NCBI RefSeq assembly: GCF_000427095.1
Contig: NC_021487.1
Coordinates: 1,116,710-1,180,709 of the forward strand
Length of the DNA: 64,000 nt
Origin: Chthonomonas calidirosea T49
GTDB taxonomy: Bacteria; Armatimonadota; Chthonomonadetes; Chthonomonadales; Chthonomonadaceae
Direction: 5' to 3'
The position numbers and the translations under genes were made by a program. The notes beneath the pieces were generated by a model. It was not told the origin of the DNA. It did not search any database and worked only from the letters and a program-made list of their open reading frames with translations. Shown here in pieces: positions 54,295 to 62,186 of the stretch (within the stretch, counting starts at the first letter, position 1; the number at the start of each line of letters is the position of its first letter).

Positions 54295-55062
54295 ATGGAA
54301 GAAACAAACCCCCATCCACGCGTGCTCGCCATCGTGCAGGCGCGCATGGGAAGCTGCCGACTACCCGGCAAACCGCTATTGTCCTTAGGTAACTCAACCA
54401 TTATCGAGCAGACCCTACACCGTATTCGCGCTGCAGAGATCGTTTCTGAGATCGTCGTTGCCATTCCCTCTCATCCTGAGAATCGGCCCCTACTCCAGCT
54501 GTGTCGCAAGCAAAACATTCCCTGTTTTGCCTACGAGGGTTCCGAAGAGGATGTGCTATCGCGCCTGCTGCAGGCCGCCACGACCTTTCATGCCGACGTT
54601 ATCGTGCGGGCTTTTGCCTGTGACCCGCTTCTCGAGCCCAAAATGCTCTGGGCCGCCACCCGTTATCAACTTGACACCGATATGGATATCGTCACCGTGG
54701 GGCGATTGCCAGAAGGGACCGCCTGCGAGGTGATGCCCCTTCGCACTCTTATCCATCTCGACAGCTTTTGCAAAAGCCGAGAGGATCGAGAGGAGGTAAC
54801 CTCTTTTTTATGGCGTCATCGAGAGTTGTTCGACTGTGCTATTCTACCGGCCCCACTCAGTTTGCGAATGCCAGGAATCCGCTTACGCGTCCAAACAGAA
54901 GAGGATTACGAGCTGTTGCGCTGGATTTTTAGCACAGTTGCCCCTCGACCAAACGGGCTGATCGCCGTGCGCGACGTGCTTGATCGGCTTCTGCATCACA
55001 CCGAACAGCTGCACAAAGCTATCGGAAGCTACGCCGTGGTTCACGACCCAAAAGCCGCTTAG
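54295..55062 (+). CDS. SpsF-like cytidylyltransferase family protein
   Basis: This 255-residue protein has the nucleotidyltransferase start VLAIVQARMGSCRLPGKPLL, then EIVVAIPSHPENRPL, YEGSEEDVLSRLLQAA and VRAFACDPLLEPKM. It resembles the CTP_transf_3 group that includes SpsF (spore-coat or surface polysaccharide) and is related to KdsB/NeuA. It probably activates a sugar acid or similar substrate for surface glycans; the exact substrate cannot be assigned. The GDPL motif is written as CDPLL. Its stop overlaps the convergent gene by 4 bases. Confidence 0.78.
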   Translation: MEETNPHPRVLAIVQARMGSCRLPGKPLLSLGNSTIIEQTLHRIRAAEIVSEIVVAIPSHPENRPLLQLCRKQNIPCFAYEGSEEDVLSRLLQAATTFHADVIVRAFACDPLLEPKMLWAATRYQLDTDMDIVTVGRLPEGTACEVMPLRTLIHLDSFCKSREDREEVTSFLWRHRELFDCAILPAPLSLRMPGIRLRVQTEEDYELLRWIFSTVAPRPNGLIAVRDVLDRLLHHTEQLHKAIGSYAVVHDPKAA

Positions 55063-56270
55063 CGAGGCGCTTTCATCTTAGGAGGAACCGTACGCACCAC
55101 CCCAACACCGTGGGCCCATTGAGGGCGCAGGCGCATCGGCTCCAAAACAGGCAACGCAACCTCCTGCACAGGTTCCTCCGGCAGCGCCTCCTCCGCAAAA
55201 ACGAGGAGAACCATCAGACCGATCAGCGCTCCAACAAGCGTCGCTGCCAGCAAGCGCCCCATCGCATCGCTCCCCACTCTCAGAGCATCATTCAGACACC
55301 ATGCCGCCAGCAACCCCGCCAGCCCACCTGCATTACGGGTGGCTCGCAGTGGCCAGTGCGGAATCCATCGGGAGCACTTCACCCCAACCAACAGCCCTAC
55401 CACCAACCATCCAGCATAACGACCGAAGTTTTCCCAAAGCGGCGGCATTCCCATCCCCGCGCGCACACCGCCCCACAACAGCAGATGAAAAACCAGCTGC
55501 CCACAGCCGCCGGCCAGAAAGCCCCACCCTGCCATACGTCCAGCCCTTAATAGCAACTGCAGGCGGGTAAAAAGAAACGGCACGCCCTGTCGCCGATAGA
55601 CCCACCACAAACCGCCAAGAAACGCCAACGCCATTAGACCTACAATCAACCCAACCCACAGCCCAACGATAACGAACTCCTCCAGCAGAAAATTGGAAAG
55701 TGCCGTCAATGGGGTTGTGGTGGCAGGCCTCACGGTAAAATCGGTTACCTCCACTGTTTGGTGAGGCCAAAGGCTCCCTTGATACTGCTTTATGTGCCCC
55801 CGCACCATCACCCGACAGCGAAAAGCGGTTGGGTCGGGGTCACCATGATTCGCATAGTAGTGGACGAAGACTCGGTAGGTTCCTAACGGAGCCTCTCCGT
55901 AGGGCCAAAAGATGTTTTCAACTGGGGTAGAGGTCAGATGTTCAACGCTCGCGTTGGCATCTACATCGAGCTGCCCACCTGTTGGTGAACGCCGATGCAT
56001 AAACCAGATTCTCACACCGGAAGGGTCTACACACCAGAGATCGAGATCGTTACGGTTGTTCCACGACAGCGAGATCTGTACCTCACCGCTCTGTCCTCCG
56101 GCCTGCTCAACACGGCGCGAAATATCGCTGCGATAGATCAGCAGAGGCCACATGCTGCTAGCAAGGAGGTTGGCTACCGGCCGGGTCTGCAGAACCATTT
56201 CAAGCAGTAGAGCGGTCAACAAACAGGCCGCACCGCCTATCAGAGCAAAAAGCACCCGAAATCGCCACAT
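55059..56270 (-). CDS. Membrane protein with extracytoplasmic YfaP-like (DUF2135) domain
   Basis: This 403-residue protein has an N-terminal membrane segment, an extracytoplasmic beta domain (about 60-180: VQISLSWNNRNDLDLWCVDP, MHRRSPTGGQLDVDANA, ENIFWPYGEAPLGTYRVFVH) and about five C-terminal membrane segments. The beta domain resembles DUF2135/YfaP, a fold found in secreted proteins linked to VWA proteins. Fusion to a polytopic domain is unusual. The ATG abuts the stop of the upstream gene, so the three genes form one operon. Function unknown. Confidence 0.7.
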   Translation of the reverse strand: MWRFRVLFALIGGAACLLTALLLEMVLQTRPVANLLASSMWPLLIYRSDISRRVEQAGGQSGEVQISLSWNNRNDLDLWCVDPSGVRIWFMHRRSPTGGQLDVDANASVEHLTSTPVENIFWPYGEAPLGTYRVFVHYYANHGDPDPTAFRCRVMVRGHIKQYQGSLWPHQTVEVTDFTVRPATTTPLTALSNFLLEEFVIVGLWVGLIVGLMALAFLGGLWWVYRRQGVPFLFTRLQLLLRAGRMAGWGFLAGGCGQLVFHLLLWGGVRAGMGMPPLWENFGRYAGWLVVGLLVGVKCSRWIPHWPLRATRNAGGLAGLLAAWCLNDALRVGSDAMGRLLAATLVGALIGLMVLLVFAEEALPEEPVQEVALPVLEPMRLRPQWAHGVGVVRTVPPKMKAPR

Positions 56271-57812
56271 CTACCACCGTCCCGCCAAAAAACCGTTTCG
56301 CGAGGCTGGGGCTGGCTTCGCGATCTCCGGCTGCTCCGGTAGCGGTTCCATCGCCCCTACAAGGTTTTCGAGCATCTGCTGCAATCTAGTCGCCTCGCCC
56401 ACGGCGGCAGCGCGCGCAGCCTGCCGTCGCTCACTTATCACACTTGGCAATGTGGGGGTGCTCAAATTCAACCGCTGCTGTTCCATATCGGCCAACTCCG
56501 TCCGTAGCTCCTGCAGCGTCTTCTCCATGCCTTCCAAAGCATAGGCATGTTGCAGAAGCTCCTGAACGACCGGATCTTTGGAACGCGCCTCCATCACGGC
56601 CCTTTGTTGGTGCCTCAACCATGCCCGTCGCATCTGTTCTTCGACCTCCGACCAGCCCTTTGTGCTCTTATACAGAAGATAAGGGCCGCTAATCAGCAGC
56701 CCTATCAACATGTAGATGGGCAAGGGCATCTCGTGGTCTTGATCAGAGCGCCTATCCTGCACACGCTCTTCGCGCAGTATCTGCTGGTGGTGCAACATAC
56801 GCAGCCCCATGCCTTCCGCCGTGACTTCGGCCAGCCCCAACACCAGCGCCCCCACCAAGCAGAGAACAGCTATGGTGGTCTGCTTATGTAGGCGCGGCAC
56901 CCGCACCGCAGAATCGTAGGCCTCCAAGCTTCGGCTCAGCATGCCCACGACCGCATGGTATATCTCTCCCATAAGGTACACGATAACAAAGCCCAGCGCC
57001 GCAGCCACTCCCAGCCGTGGCAGCCCGTCGGCCCTAAGCAGCGTATCCAAGTCAAGCAACCCCACCAACGTTCCCAAACAGAGGGCCAGCAGAAGGCCTG
57101 CCACCAACGGGGCCAATATCTGCATAAACATATTGAGGAGCAGCGCAAAAAAGCCCTTTTGCTCTTCCGGCCGCACACCGTGCTCTCCGGCAATCTCGTC
57201 TAGGTCGGGTATCTCTTCAAGCGCCTCGATCACCTTGCGCGGCTCAACCGCAGCACTAGGACGCTGTTCTCCCCCCTGCGAGGCCATTTCCTGCTTTAGC
57301 AGCCCGTCCGGCAAACGTAGGCCGGCGCGCCCCACGCTCTCGGCAAAACGGCGTCGCTCCTGCAAAAGCTCTATTCTCAGCTCCGCTTCGCGCTCACGCA
57401 ACAACTCGATCTGCTTCGCCAGCCGCGCCTGTTCTTTAGCGTTTTCAGCTTTCAGCTGCTCCAGCAGCTCCTGAACCTCATGTTCTACCGCACGCTGCTC
57501 CTCCGTGGCCGCCACCGCACGCGTCCAGTAGTTCCAACGCAGCAGCCAAAATCTTCTGGGAAAATCGCGACAATGTCCCTCTAGCTGGTTCAGCAAGGCC
57601 TCTTGGCGCGCTCTCTCCTCCGGAGACAAACCGATAGGCGGCACGTGCCAAACCATGTCACTCGCAAACCCACTCGGCCAAAAGAGAGCCTGCTTTGTTG
57701 CCTCCGAGGCCCCTTTCACCTCCATGGAAGCTGAGGAAGGTTCCTCAACGCGCCCATTCACAACGGCGCGTCCCTCTTTTTCTAATCCCGCAACCACATC
57801 CGGATCGTCCAT
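56271..57812 (-). CDS. Large membrane protein with two coiled coils, unknown function
   Basis: This 513-residue protein has a soluble N-terminal half with a long coiled coil (about 95-160: VEHEVQELLEQLKAENAKEQ, LLREREAELRIELLQERRRF). About four membrane segments follow (about 230-265, 278-300, 320-340 and 368-390), then a second coiled coil (about 430-470) and a Pro/Ala-rich end. I do not recognise a family. It lies between the VWA protein and the YfaP-like protein with 11-base and 0-base gaps and likely forms a membrane complex with them. Confidence 0.65.
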   Translation of the reverse strand: MDDPDVVAGLEKEGRAVVNGRVEEPSSASMEVKGASEATKQALFWPSGFASDMVWHVPPIGLSPEERARQEALLNQLEGHCRDFPRRFWLLRWNYWTRAVAATEEQRAVEHEVQELLEQLKAENAKEQARLAKQIELLREREAELRIELLQERRRFAESVGRAGLRLPDGLLKQEMASQGGEQRPSAAVEPRKVIEALEEIPDLDEIAGEHGVRPEEQKGFFALLLNMFMQILAPLVAGLLLALCLGTLVGLLDLDTLLRADGLPRLGVAAALGFVIVYLMGEIYHAVVGMLSRSLEAYDSAVRVPRLHKQTTIAVLCLVGALVLGLAEVTAEGMGLRMLHHQQILREERVQDRRSDQDHEMPLPIYMLIGLLISGPYLLYKSTKGWSEVEEQMRRAWLRHQQRAVMEARSKDPVVQELLQHAYALEGMEKTLQELRTELADMEQQRLNLSTPTLPSVISERRQAARAAAVGEATRLQQMLENLVGAMEPLPEQPEIAKPAPASRNGFLAGRW

Positions 57813-57823
57813 TGTTTCCCTCG

Positions 57824-58543
57824 CTATTTCGCCTTATTGGGGGACTCCAGCAGTAGGCGCAAGCGTTGCAGCCCCTCCGCTGCATCCTGGCGCCCGGTTA
57901 CAATTAACCTGTTGCCAAAAATCGGCATCAACCTTCTTTCAAGTTCCGAGCGGAAGCCGTTTCGCGATGTCACCCCACAAAACCACACCGCTTTTAAAGA
58001 GCTGATCTGCGCAAGCTTTTTGGCCTCCTCAACGGTCGTGCGCGGGTTTTCATCCTCTCCATCGGTCAGCATTAAAATAGCGGCCGGCTCGCCTTGCGAC
58101 TGATCGGCACTAACCTCGCGCACCATCTCTTTAAATGCCACTGCAGGAAAGGTGCCCCAGCTCGTGGGGTGCAGCGCCATCACCTCATCCTCTGTCGGCC
58201 ATAGGTCTTCTGGACGCACTGGCACGAGGTCGGCAAACTTATGCGCATTCACATCAAACGACCATATCTCCACATGCGATCCTTGCGGTAGCACCTCCGC
58301 CACCGTTTCATCCAGTACGCCGAACATCTGTTTGCGCGACTGCATGTGAACACTGCCTGTGACATCGGCCCCCACCAGGAGGTCTACCCTCTTACCCGAA
58401 CGCGCATGAGAAAACATATAGGCGCCGGCTCCCACAAGCCCTGCCAAAAGCGCGAGAGCGGCCACAGCGGCGATCATTTCAGAAGGTTGGAACGAGCCCA
58501 GTTTTCGCCCGTTCTGGCTTCCTCGTTCGCTCCATCGAGCCAT
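57824..58543 (-). CDS. Membrane-anchored VWA-domain protein
   Basis: This 239-residue protein has a membrane segment near residues 24-45 and a von Willebrand A-type domain with a metal-site motif (LLVGADVTGSVHM, D-x-T-x-S) and the late motif ILMLTDGEDEN. VWA domains bind protein partners through a divalent metal. A good ribosome site (AAGGAG) precedes the ATG. It is the first gene of the three-gene cluster. Partner and role are unknown. Confidence 0.78.
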   Translation of the reverse strand: MARWSERGSQNGRKLGSFQPSEMIAAVAALALLAGLVGAGAYMFSHARSGKRVDLLVGADVTGSVHMQSRKQMFGVLDETVAEVLPQGSHVEIWSFDVNAHKFADLVPVRPEDLWPTEDEVMALHPTSWGTFPAVAFKEMVREVSADQSQGEPAAILMLTDGEDENPRTTVEEAKKLAQISSLKAVWFCGVTSRNGFRSELERRLMPIFGNRLIVTGRQDAAEGLQRLRLLLESPNKAK

Positions 58544-58853: not shown

Positions 58854-60245
58854 ATGAACCAGATAAAGCCAAACCGTCCTCTTGTTGCTATTGTGGGTCG
58901 TCCCAATGTAGGCAAATCGGCCCTCTTTAATCGGCTCGTGGGGCGTCGTGTTGCCATCGTGGAAGATACGCCGGGTATTACCCGCGATCGGCTTTACCAA
59001 CCGGCCCAGTGGCGTGGGCATCACTTTACTGTGATAGATACCGGGGGAATCCTTTTCAGCGACCAAGACCCTCTTACCGTTCAGGTCCGCGCGCAAGCTC
59101 AGATCGCTATGGAGGAGGCGGCTCTCATCCTCTTTGTCGTGGATGCCGCCAGCGGCCTTACGCCTACCGACCAAGAGATCGCCGACACTCTACGGGCCTC
59201 CCTCCGCCCCGTTCTTCTCGTCGTCAACAAAACCGATAATACGCGACTGGAACAACATGCCGCCGAATTCTACGCCCTAGGCTTTGCCGAGATCTACCCC
59301 GTCTCCGCCATTCACGGTCACGGGGTGGCCGATCTGCTCGATCGAGTCATCGCGCTTTTACAGCAAGAGAAGGCACTTGTGCCCAGCGATCTCAAGGAAG
59401 AGGAGGAGTCCATTCGTCTGGCCATCGTCGGCCGACCTAACGTGGGCAAGTCGTCTCTACTTAATGCCATCCTCGGCGAAGAGAGGGCCATTGTAAGCCC
59501 TATGCCTGGCACCACACGCGACGCGCTCGACACGCATTTCACCTGGAGCGAGCAACCGCTTACTCTCATAGATACCGCCGGCATTCGTCGCAGCGGCAAG
59601 GTGCAGGGCACCGTGGAGTACTACATGGTGCTTCGCGCCCGAACCGCCATGGAGCGCAGCGACGTGGCCTTGGTGGTGGTAGATGCCGAGGCCGGTATTA
59701 CGGATGGCGACAAACGCGTGGCACAGCTCGCCCAAGAGGCTGGCCGCGCGTGCGTGATCGTCGTCAACAAATGGGACCTTGTTGACCCCCAAATTCTAAA
59801 CTCAAAAGGGAAACTCTCGGCGGCCTCACGCAGCCGTATTTTGAAGTTTACCGAACAGTTCCGTCGCGAGTGCTCTTTCCTGGACTACGCTCCCCTCGCG
59901 TTTGTATCGGCGAAAGAGAGATTTGGAGTGACCAGTGCCATTGAAACCGCCATCGAGGCCGCGCAAAACCATGCCCATCGCATTGCGACCGGTGAACTAA
60001 ACCGGCTGATTCATGAGGCCATATCGAAGCATCCGCTGCTCGACAAAGGGCGCGCCTTCAAAGTCTACTACGCCACCATGGTGGGCGTACGGCCCCCCAC
60101 CATTGTGTTGTTCTGCAACGAACCGGAGATGTTTCACTTCTCCTATCGCAACTATCTGGAGAACCAACTGCGCGCGGTCTATCCGTTGGAGGGTACCCCC
60201 ATACGTTTCCTTACCCGCAAGGCCGAAAACCGTCCCAAGGTGTAA
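58854..60245 (+). CDS. der: Ribosome assembly GTPase Der (EngA)
   Basis: Der is an essential tandem GTPase for 50S ribosome assembly. The 463-residue protein has two G domains with P-loops GRPNVGKSALFNR near residue 15 and GRPNVGKSSLLNA near 190. It also has DTPGITRDRLYQP and MPGTTRDALDTHF, DTGG and DTAG switch motifs, NKTD and NKWD base-specificity motifs, and the C-terminal KH-like domain (KVYYATMVGVRPPTIVLFCN). Length and order match the family. The ribosome site is weak. Confidence 0.96.
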   Translation: MNQIKPNRPLVAIVGRPNVGKSALFNRLVGRRVAIVEDTPGITRDRLYQPAQWRGHHFTVIDTGGILFSDQDPLTVQVRAQAQIAMEEAALILFVVDAASGLTPTDQEIADTLRASLRPVLLVVNKTDNTRLEQHAAEFYALGFAEIYPVSAIHGHGVADLLDRVIALLQQEKALVPSDLKEEEESIRLAIVGRPNVGKSSLLNAILGEERAIVSPMPGTTRDALDTHFTWSEQPLTLIDTAGIRRSGKVQGTVEYYMVLRARTAMERSDVALVVVDAEAGITDGDKRVAQLAQEAGRACVIVVNKWDLVDPQILNSKGKLSAASRSRILKFTEQFRRECSFLDYAPLAFVSAKERFGVTSAIETAIEAAQNHAHRIATGELNRLIHEAISKHPLLDKGRAFKVYYATMVGVRPPTIVLFCNEPEMFHFSYRNYLENQLRAVYPLEGTPIRFLTRKAENRPKV

Positions 60246-60284: not shown

Positions 60285-62186
60285 CTACCCCCGCACAAAA
60301 AACGGACGGCGATGGAACAGGTACCACTCGAACCCCAACGCGATGAGAGCCAGTAGAACAAGCCATGGCAAAAAGGGGTGTAGGACGACAACCGGTTTCC
60401 CACGCTCTGCTTGTGGATTGGGCGCCTCAAACGGCAACTTCTTAACCGGCGCAATGTTGGAGGCTTCGGGGTTGTTCAAGCTAATGGCAAAAAGCCCCCT
60501 ATCGTTCGCGGTGCGCCCCCCTATGCCTACCGGATAACCACTTGTTACCGAATAAAACCCGCACTGGTCGGTGTCGTTAAACAGAGCCCGCCCGTCCGGC
60601 CCTAAACCCACCCGCCTTGCAGAGCCATCTGGCAGACGCACCAACACAGATGTAGCCCCAGGCGCTGCCGCCAACGTCACCGGCTGCCCAGCGCGCGAGG
60701 GCAAACCTTCCGTCGCCTCCCCCGTCGCCAGCCAACGGACGCTCTCAGAGATCAAAATGGGAAAAGCAACCGATAACGGAAGCCGAGACTGATCGGGGTC
60801 AAAGGCAAAGAAGAGCGATCGCGTTGGGCCATCCTCCCCCTCCACGATCAACGGCCCTGAATCGCCCGTTACCACCTCGCGCGCCCACGGTTTGGGGGTA
60901 GACAAAAGCACGTCATCAAAACGCTGGTTGGTTAAATCCACATAGCGCATCACGGGGTCGGTATGCTGCCAGTCCACCGTCTCCACGCTGGCTGTTGCCC
61001 CCGTCAGCTGTGCTGGGCTGCGGTCGCCAGAGCAGTGGATAAAAAGGTAGTGCCCTGGCGGAAGCGTTTTTGGCGCCGCGTTATAGAAAATGACCACATC
61101 GTATTTTTGCGCCACGGCATCGCCCGGATAGTTCGGCGACACATCTACCTGAAGATCGGGGTCTACCTCCAAAGCGTTCTCTAAAAAGATGTTCTCCGCC
61201 CCTGTCAGCAAAACTTTAAAAATGCGTTTGGGCGCCAACACCAGGTAGGCCGTATTGTCGGTGCTAAGGTCGTCCTTTACATCCAAATGAAACTTCAGCG
61301 GCAGCGCCCCTGGCGGCTCCTGCATCGCGTAGGTGTCGGTATGCGTAGCGCCAGGGCCTAAAGAGATCTCGCGGGCATCCACCAACTGCTTGCCCGCATA
61401 CAGCTCCTCAATAAACTTGCGGGGATGCGAGGAAAAATTCTGGGTAGAGGCCAGCACCTCGAGCCCATGCTGATAGCCCACCAACCTACGGTAGTCAAAA
61501 GCCACAATGCCCACGTTGTCATCGCTTTTGCCGACGATGTAGGCGCGCAAACCGATGTTGTTGCCCAGACTAAGAGAGGCGGTATCCATGTGCGAAAAAC
61601 AGCCATCGGTAACCAGCTCGATAAGCCCCCCGTTCCCCGTCGTCTGGGCCAGCTCCGAAGCCAGTTGCAGGGCTGTATGCATATCGGGGGGCGCCTCCGA
61701 GGCCTGCAGGGTACCGATGGCACGCCGCAGCTCGGTGCGATTATCGGTAAAACCGGTAAGGGCTTGCGGCGAGCTACCGGCCGCGATAACGATCATCCTG
61801 TCTCCCGGGCGCAGCTGGGATATCAGGCGATAGGCCACCTCTTTCGCTTGGTCAAGACGGGTGGGAGAGCCATCGGTGGCTCGCATCGTCACGCCGGTAT
61901 CCACCACCAAAACCAGCGTACGTCCCCCTCGCGTAAGCAACCGCAGCACCGGTTGGGAGAGCGCCAAAATAAGCAGTAGAGCGATGAGAAGCTGCATCAA
62001 CAACAGCGGATTATAACGAAGTTTTTGGAAAGGCGCGTTGGCCTGCACATCCCGAATGACCTGCTGCCAAAGGTAGAGTGAGGAGACCTCCACATCCTTG
62101 CGACGCAGTTTCAAAATGTAGAGCAAAATAATGGCACCCCAGATGAGAGGCAACCAAAGCAGGCTCCAGGGGCTGAGCAGGTGCAT
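60285..62186 (-). CDS. BatA-like membrane protein with VWA domain
   Basis: This 633-residue protein opens with the BatA/DUF1550-type segment LLSPWSLLWLPLIWGAIILL, LYILKLRRKDVEVSSLYLWQ and a second membrane helix near residue 65. A VWA-like domain (about 85-250) follows. Its metal-site motif is LVVDTGVTMRATDG, so D-x-S-x-S reads D-T-G-V-T, and ELVTDG is kept. A beta-rich region and a C-terminal membrane helix (VLLALIALGFEWYLF) follow. Relatives occur with MoxR ATPases and DUF58 proteins, absent here. It starts 2 bases after the upstream gene. Confidence 0.82.
   Translation of the reverse strand: MHLLSPWSLLWLPLIWGAIILLYILKLRRKDVEVSSLYLWQQVIRDVQANAPFQKLRYNPLLLMQLLIALLLILALSQPVLRLLTRGGRTLVLVVDTGVTMRATDGSPTRLDQAKEVAYRLISQLRPGDRMIVIAAGSSPQALTGFTDNRTELRRAIGTLQASEAPPDMHTALQLASELAQTTGNGGLIELVTDGCFSHMDTASLSLGNNIGLRAYIVGKSDDNVGIVAFDYRRLVGYQHGLEVLASTQNFSSHPRKFIEELYAGKQLVDAREISLGPGATHTDTYAMQEPPGALPLKFHLDVKDDLSTDNTAYLVLAPKRIFKVLLTGAENIFLENALEVDPDLQVDVSPNYPGDAVAQKYDVVIFYNAAPKTLPPGHYLFIHCSGDRSPAQLTGATASVETVDWQHTDPVMRYVDLTNQRFDDVLLSTPKPWAREVVTGDSGPLIVEGEDGPTRSLFFAFDPDQSRLPLSVAFPILISESVRWLATGEATEGLPSRAGQPVTLAAAPGATSVLVRLPDGSARRVGLGPDGRALFNDTDQCGFYSVTSGYPVGIGGRTANDRGLFAISLNNPEASNIAPVKKLPFEAPNPQAERGKPVVVLHPFLPWLVLLALIALGFEWYLFHRRPFFVRG

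Follow-up and report, generated by a model that had tools for sequence, protein, structure and literature searches.

Three adjacent genes of the hot-soil bacterium Chthonomonas calidirosea T49 encode a VWA protein, a four-transmembrane (4-TM) coiled-coil protein, here called CC, and a YfaP/DUF2135-type membrane protein. The trio is kept as a unit in 22 genomes of Armatimonadota and matches no characterised complex. We propose, with a probability of roughly 0.4, that it encodes an inner-membrane receptor-like complex with a sensory or signalling role, in which MIDAS-dependent binding on the outside is relayed by CC to the cytoplasm. VWA-based membrane complexes are broadly of a known kind; new in this work are the CC family and the unit formed by the three genes.

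Organization of the locus

The analysed DNA, a stretch of 64,000 nucleotides referred to as the window, belongs to a contig of 3,437,861 bp. The published T49 genome has the same length and a G+C content of 54.41% (PMC4959169). All three genes are on the minus strand. The VWA gene (58543-57824, ORF of 239 aa) encodes an N-terminal TM anchor and an extracytoplasmic VWA domain with a complete MIDAS; it is followed by the CC gene (57812-56271, 513 aa) and by the YfaP-type gene (56270-55059, 403 aa), which encodes a beta domain and a 5-TM module. According to the ORF coordinates, 11 bp separate the VWA and CC genes and 0 bp the CC and YfaP-type genes, and the description of the locus in the sequence-only reading, as three adjacent genes at 55059-58543 with gaps of 11 and 0, is therefore correct.

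Upstream of the VWA gene, 310 bp lead to a divergent gene at 58854, encoding an EngA/Der-like GTPase by sequence. At the other end, the YfaP-type gene overlaps by 4 bp the 3' end of a convergent cytidylyltransferase-like gene. A promoter search returned sites at chance level only, and none on the minus strand upstream of the VWA gene. A single operon is the best explanation of this arrangement. As the T49 genome has been published as unusually operon-poor (PMC4959169), the presence of an intact trio operon suggests that the three genes are strongly coupled. Just past the GTPase gene, the region 60285-62186 encodes a BatA-type VWA protein (PF07584 and VWA_2), with no MoxR gene adjoining it.

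The VWA protein

The TM anchor of the VWA protein spans residues 23-41 by hydropathy (58421-58477, minus strand). Domain and profile matches, together with conservation, place the VWA domain at about residues 53-193 (57965-58387, minus strand). The protein carries all the DxS/TxS, T and D residues of the VWA superfamily, and its MIDAS is complete, consisting of D60-x-T-x-S64 (D60 codon, 58366-58364), T131 and D161. Positions D60, S/T62, S/T64, T131 and D161 are kept in 17/17 sequences, with one S to T change at 64. Single-sequence searches gave weak matches: the Pfam model VWA_3 was found at 8.8e-5, below its cut-off, no Pfam model scored above cut-off, and the sole NCBIfam match (TIGR00868, 4e-6) was far below its own. 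When 17 relatives were combined in a profile, the closest solved structure was the integrin alpha-1 I domain (7.5e-6).

A lipoprotein-like (lipobox-like) signal takes the place of the TM anchor in one relative (G009) and in distant relatives. This exchange indicates that the VWA domain lies outside the cytoplasmic membrane, and it supports both the membrane assignment made by the sequence-only reading and the extracytoplasmic side of the domain that follows the N-terminal TM segment.

The CC protein

CC has no relative in Pfam, NCBIfam, PADLOC or PDB sequences, and Foldseek comparisons with the PDB gave no match at E below 0.001 for either CC or the YfaP-type protein. The AF2 model of CC is of moderate quality (pLDDT 78.5, pTM 0.53). 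It features a long N-terminal helix (residues 85-163; 57324-57560), a four-TM region, also outlined by conservation (residues 221 to about 383; 56664-57152), and C-terminal helices (residues 414-488, split into 414-451 and 457-488; 56349-56573), all encoded on the minus strand. The model thus agrees with the earlier picture of a four-helix membrane protein with long coiled coils on both sides. The coiled coils at both ends are probably cytoplasmic, an orientation that the loop charges fit weakly.

Within the four-TM region of CC, the acidic residue at position 333 is kept in 18/18 sequences. Acidic residues of the short external loops would be candidate partners of the MIDAS. In these loops, D/E occurs at position 262 in 14 of the 18 sequences, but no acidic position proved strictly invariant, which counts against the docking proposed below.

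A marginal PHROGs match of CC (0.008) lies within the coiled-coil part. We rejected a phage or plasmid origin, as CC is encoded by no viral contig or plasmid record searched. CC was also rejected as a MotA/ExbB/TolQ-type protein, given that searches revealed no MotA_ExbB Pfam match, no PDB sequence match and no significant fold match.

The YfaP-type protein

The AF2 model of the YfaP-type protein (pLDDT 85) consists of a first TM helix, a beta domain at residues 64-180 (55731-56081, minus strand) and five further TM helices. The latter form the 5-TM module, residues 187-351 (55218-55712, minus strand). The C-terminal tail, residues 361-403 (55062-55190, minus strand), is modelled with low confidence and is cytoplasmic by helix count. 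The extracytoplasmic beta domain is defined by the model, by conservation and by a profile that finds E. coli YfaP with an i-E of 3.7e-14 in a six-sequence test; DLDL and LDxD motifs are common to the two proteins. Model and profile match together bear out the assignment of a polytopic protein with an extracytoplasmic YfaP-like domain. Scores against PF09906 (16 bits for the window protein, 20.2 and 19.1 for relatives) are below the curated cut-off of 22 bits. Seven residues of the beta domain, N74, D75, D77, D102, D104, N106 and E118, do not vary among the sequences compared (15/15) and look like a metal site.

E. coli YfaP (DUF2135, PF09906), which is encoded in the yfaA-T-S-Q-P cluster, resembles the T49 protein in its homologous beta domain. 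In contrast, it lacks the 5-TM module, and its gene has yfaQ, yfaS, yfaT and yfaA as neighbours, not VWA or CC genes. No paper on the function of YfaP was found in the literature searched.

The YfaP beta domain is also present in 412 phage records. In large phages, such as MZ520832.1 (L183) and KT151959.1 (L184), it is found inside proteins of ~670 aa (phrog_1735). On a Cereibacter plasmid, a YfaP-domain gene (L185:5131-6399) overlaps the start of SrfB, and SrfC comes next.

Given that the integrin I domain is the solved structure nearest to the VWA profile, the trio could be viewed as a device for surface adhesion or matrix anchoring, in which the VWA and YfaP domains bind a polymer or neighbouring cells and CC and the 5-TM module provide the anchor. 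We consider this improbable, as the two domains are small and tethered near the inner membrane, neither repeats nor outer-membrane components were seen, and an anchor needs no conserved cytoplasmic coiled coils.

Distribution and conservation of the trio

A strong CC profile match was obtained in 24 of 291 genomes of the phylum. These genomes belong to the family of the window (f1, seven genomes), f29 (14), f3 (one), f6 (one, G198) and f9 (one, G036). The full trio is present in 22 of the 24, which represent at least three Armatimonadota families. Reciprocally, a full-length YfaP-type protein occurs in exactly 22 genomes, and CC is present in every one of them. In the two other CC genomes, one of which carries the locus on a 4-kb contig, VWA and CC were found and the YfaP-type protein was not. 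The order VWA, CC, YfaP on one strand is constant (22/22), and the CC and YfaP-type genes are usually a few bases apart. In one locus (G183), CC is in two frames in its assembly; ORF starts in some relatives were picked mechanically. No conserved extra operon members or neighbour cluster were detected at the trio loci, the flanks of which vary between genera. The sequence-only reading had made co-occurrence in relatives the test of its proposal, and the trio passed it, with all three genes retained amid unrelated flanks. Within f1, 10 of 17 genomes lack all three genes; the unit is thus accessory, yet all-or-none.

The hypergeometric value for the co-occurrence is 4e-31, a figure that ignores shared ancestry and is a guide only. 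A stronger argument is that gene order and spacing hold at 23-30% protein identity. Across the trio genes, pN ranges from 0.12 to 0.33 and pS is about 0.8; both are used in place of Ka/Ks, which is not computable as synonymous sites are saturated. Judged from these values, the trio genes are under purifying selection. The constrained amino-acid sites, along with the gene order kept in 22 genomes, place the trio beyond chance.

Phylogeny inflates co-occurrence, and two families supply most of the 22 genomes, as would be expected if the genes were adjacent by descent only and functioned separately. This is very improbable, given the order and spacing held at such low identity in front of flanks that differ between genera, and given that VWA-CC adjacency survives order swaps. 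We consider it likely, from these genomic patterns, that the three proteins would form a physical complex.

In the CC tree, f1 and f29 separate, and the f6 sequence (G198, L091) nests in f29, a placement that may reflect gene transfer or a binning error. Beyond the phylum, CC was absent from ~106 genomes searched and from the matches of one scan of genome contigs; the scan found Chthonomonadales-type relatives only and, having missed f29, is of short reach.

A wider family of VWA and CC pairs

Two groups of distant CC relatives were identified by profile comparison, with probabilities that are to be read knowing that composition can inflate matches between membrane proteins. The first (probability 99.0) includes long forms of ~740-850 aa encoded beside VWA genes, several of which specify lipoproteins, in six genomes (G001, G007, G010, G011, G014 and G057). 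The second (probability 99.2) includes forms of ~410-530 aa in family f14, where 12 of 85 genomes gave a CC match and three of them (G105, G126 and G156) carry two or three copies each. Distant adjacent pairs occur on chromosomes as well as on integrative elements; in several of the f14 loci the order is CC then VWA, and adjacency is retained.

Inspection of the f14 loci revealed about 13 in which a VWA gene adjoins CC. A TrwB/HerA-type ATPase is found near 7 of these ~13 pairs, accompanied by Replic_Relax in 5 of the 7 and by a zinc-ribbon TM protein in 6. Other pairs are near genes for tyrosine integrases, for serine recombinases or for ArdC antirestriction proteins. The seven ATPase loci (L132, L134, L101, L202, L203, L205 and L206) are integrative-element-like, and some contain an integrase or a serine recombinase; the parts of these loci that were read revealed no classical T4SS genes. 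At L201, L204, L207 and L208, VWA and CC are near ArdC genes, with an integrase or a serine recombinase in three of the four.

VWA and CC look like the core of the system, with YfaP as a partner specific to the chromosomal trio. The pair also exists without YfaP, on mobile elements among other places, which makes the trio one form of a broader family. The pairs near ATPase, integrase, recombinase and ArdC genes, and the multiple copies in several genomes, would fit a different history, in which VWA and CC were at root a mobile-element apparatus for cell contact or DNA transfer, and the chromosomal trio arose from it by domestication and acquired YfaP. We regard this history as rather unlikely. 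Replic_Relax is absent from all nine trio genomes tested, the trio loci contain no recognised integrase, and the CC tree follows family lines, G198 excepted. The trio is accordingly independent of that mobilisation gene, and reliance on Replic_Relax mobilisation genes is rejected for the nine genomes. Among the loci inspected, the features of a conjugative or mobilisable module are found with the distant f14 pairs only.

In four f14 genomes (L172, L180-L182), an operon of four genes parallels the trio in layout: the gene for a VWA lipoprotein is followed by those for a 4-TM protein, another VWA protein and a 167-aa 5-TM module. Compared with the window profiles, its VWA and 5-TM proteins match at probabilities of 94.8% and 90.4%, the latter being the least secure. 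The operon differs in that the second VWA stands where the trio has the YfaP domain. Its 4-TM protein was rejected as a CC homologue (probability 0.4%).

Domain fusions and the FHA/kinase setting

Parts of the trio are fused to one another or to FHA domains elsewhere in the phylum. A membrane module homologous to the 5-TM part of the YfaP-type protein is present in FHA proteins (probability 97.8, E 1e-12); GxxxGQxxF and RxxGW motifs occur in both. The same module is found in a VWA-5TM-FHA fusion (G061, L169). In another genome, the YfaP domain is located within a VWA protein, and a Ser/Thr kinase gene adjoins it (G069, L171); in a third, a YfaP-TM-FHA protein is encoded next to a Ser/Thr kinase gene (G045, L096). 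These fusions argue for joint action of the VWA domain, the YfaP domain and the 5-TM module across the membrane and suggest a signalling context. The kinase/FHA association is confined to such fusions and to neighbours of related domains in other genomes. No kinase, PP2C, FHA or Ter genes are present within the trio, which is not a Ter (TerY-P)/kinase-FHA system.

A VWA-FHA partnership in signalling is exemplified by archaeal ArnA-ArnB (PMC6509490). The likeness to ArnA-ArnB (FHA and vWA) and to Ser/Thr-kinase-FHA clusters lies in the VWA, YfaP and 5-TM parts being joined to FHA or near kinases elsewhere in the phylum. In contrast, the trio has no FHA or kinase, and ArnA-ArnB has no YfaP or CC parts.

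Fusions of a glycine-rich 5-TM module with one or two FHA domains are found repeatedly in Armatimonadota (L097, L167, L170, L173 and L174); a scan of L097 revealed no Pfam family of its own for the module. At L167:904-8547, genes for ThiF, two JAB proteases, RING-like zinc proteins and an E2-like protein precede those for a YfaP-domain lipoprotein and a 5-TM-FHA protein. These genes probably form a bacterial cluster for ubiquitin-like conjugation, linked to the YfaP and 5-TM-FHA modules.

Comparison with known systems

Comparison of the trio with characterised complexes in Pfam, NCBIfam, PADLOC, PHROGs, PDB sequences and PDB folds revealed no match. The suggestion that this gene set resembles no described system has thus stood up to family, sequence and fold searches. 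No PADLOC match at E 0.01 was obtained for any of the three proteins, and an anti-phage defence system was rejected. No paper on this gene set was found in the literature searched, which covered few subscription papers.

The trio shares with the vWA/MoxR ternary systems (VMAP, RavA-ViaA and Bat) a vWA domain with an intact MIDAS and a multi-gene organization. It differs from them in lacking a MoxR AAA+ ATPase, in the extracytoplasmic position of its VWA domain and in having a 4-TM coiled-coil protein as partner. By inspection, no MoxR-type AAA+ ATPase adjoins the trio in the window, and the locus does not qualify as a vWA-MoxR system. Calcium-channel alpha2-delta and CLCA-type VWA proteins are similar in having a VWA MIDAS on the cell exterior and a multi-pass membrane protein next to it, a likeness to which the sub-threshold TIGR00868 match of the VWA protein also belongs; in contrast, CC has no sequence relation to channels and no significant PDB fold match.

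These systems raise the alternative that the VWA protein is an assembly factor, that is, a metal-dependent chaperone or docking subunit for folding, inserting or stabilising a membrane complex, with CC and the YfaP-type protein as client or scaffold. Alpha2-delta for calcium channels and the vWA proteins that act with MoxR ATPases are the models for such a role. That vWA proteins bind peptides and serve as co-chaperones alongside MoxR ATPases is well known (PMC7159879), and calcium-channel papers treat multi-pass partners with an external VWA (e.g., PMC4042065). However, no neighbour gene is conserved at the trio, so there is no linked ATPase or client, and the BatA-type VWA gene close by (60285-62186) has no adjoining MoxR gene in the window either. 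An assembly role is unlikely on this evidence, albeit the alternative we would consider first.

Proposed function

In the receptor-like complex that we favour, the VWA domain would make, outside the cytoplasmic membrane, a regulated contact between the MIDAS metal and an acidic residue. Candidate partners are a short external loop of CC or of the YfaP-type protein, the YfaP beta domain or an outside ligand. With its four TM helices and inner coiled coils, CC would relay the resulting change, in conformation or in assembly, to a partner in the cytoplasm. The YfaP-type protein would contribute another domain outside the membrane, which probably binds metal and is carried by a 5-TM base with a tail in the cytoplasm. 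The complex, the metal-dependent docking, the direction of the signal and the sensory role are all four what we infer from the data above. As the trio includes no FHA, kinase or other recognised cytoplasmic output, the signalling step is drawn by analogy. Moreover, the distant VWA and CC pairs beside a DNA-pump-like ATPase on mobile elements suggest another use, which counts against the receptor reading.

More speculatively, VWA and 4-TM coiled-coil proteins might be an as yet unnamed class of metal-gated transmembrane coupling devices, partnered by a YfaP/5-TM receptor on chromosomes or by a TrwB/HerA-type DNA-pumping ATPase on integrative elements, and serving both envelope sensing and DNA transfer in Armatimonadota. 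We regard this reading as unlikely. To our knowledge, little is known of the envelope biology of the phylum. The trio offers a small, conserved and experimentally tractable unit, which combines an undescribed membrane family with an integrin-like domain on the outer face. If the coupling idea is true, the trio would be a bacterial instance of a MIDAS-controlled transmembrane switch, and its mobile-element versions would indicate a transfer or entry apparatus assembled without a classical type IV secretion system.
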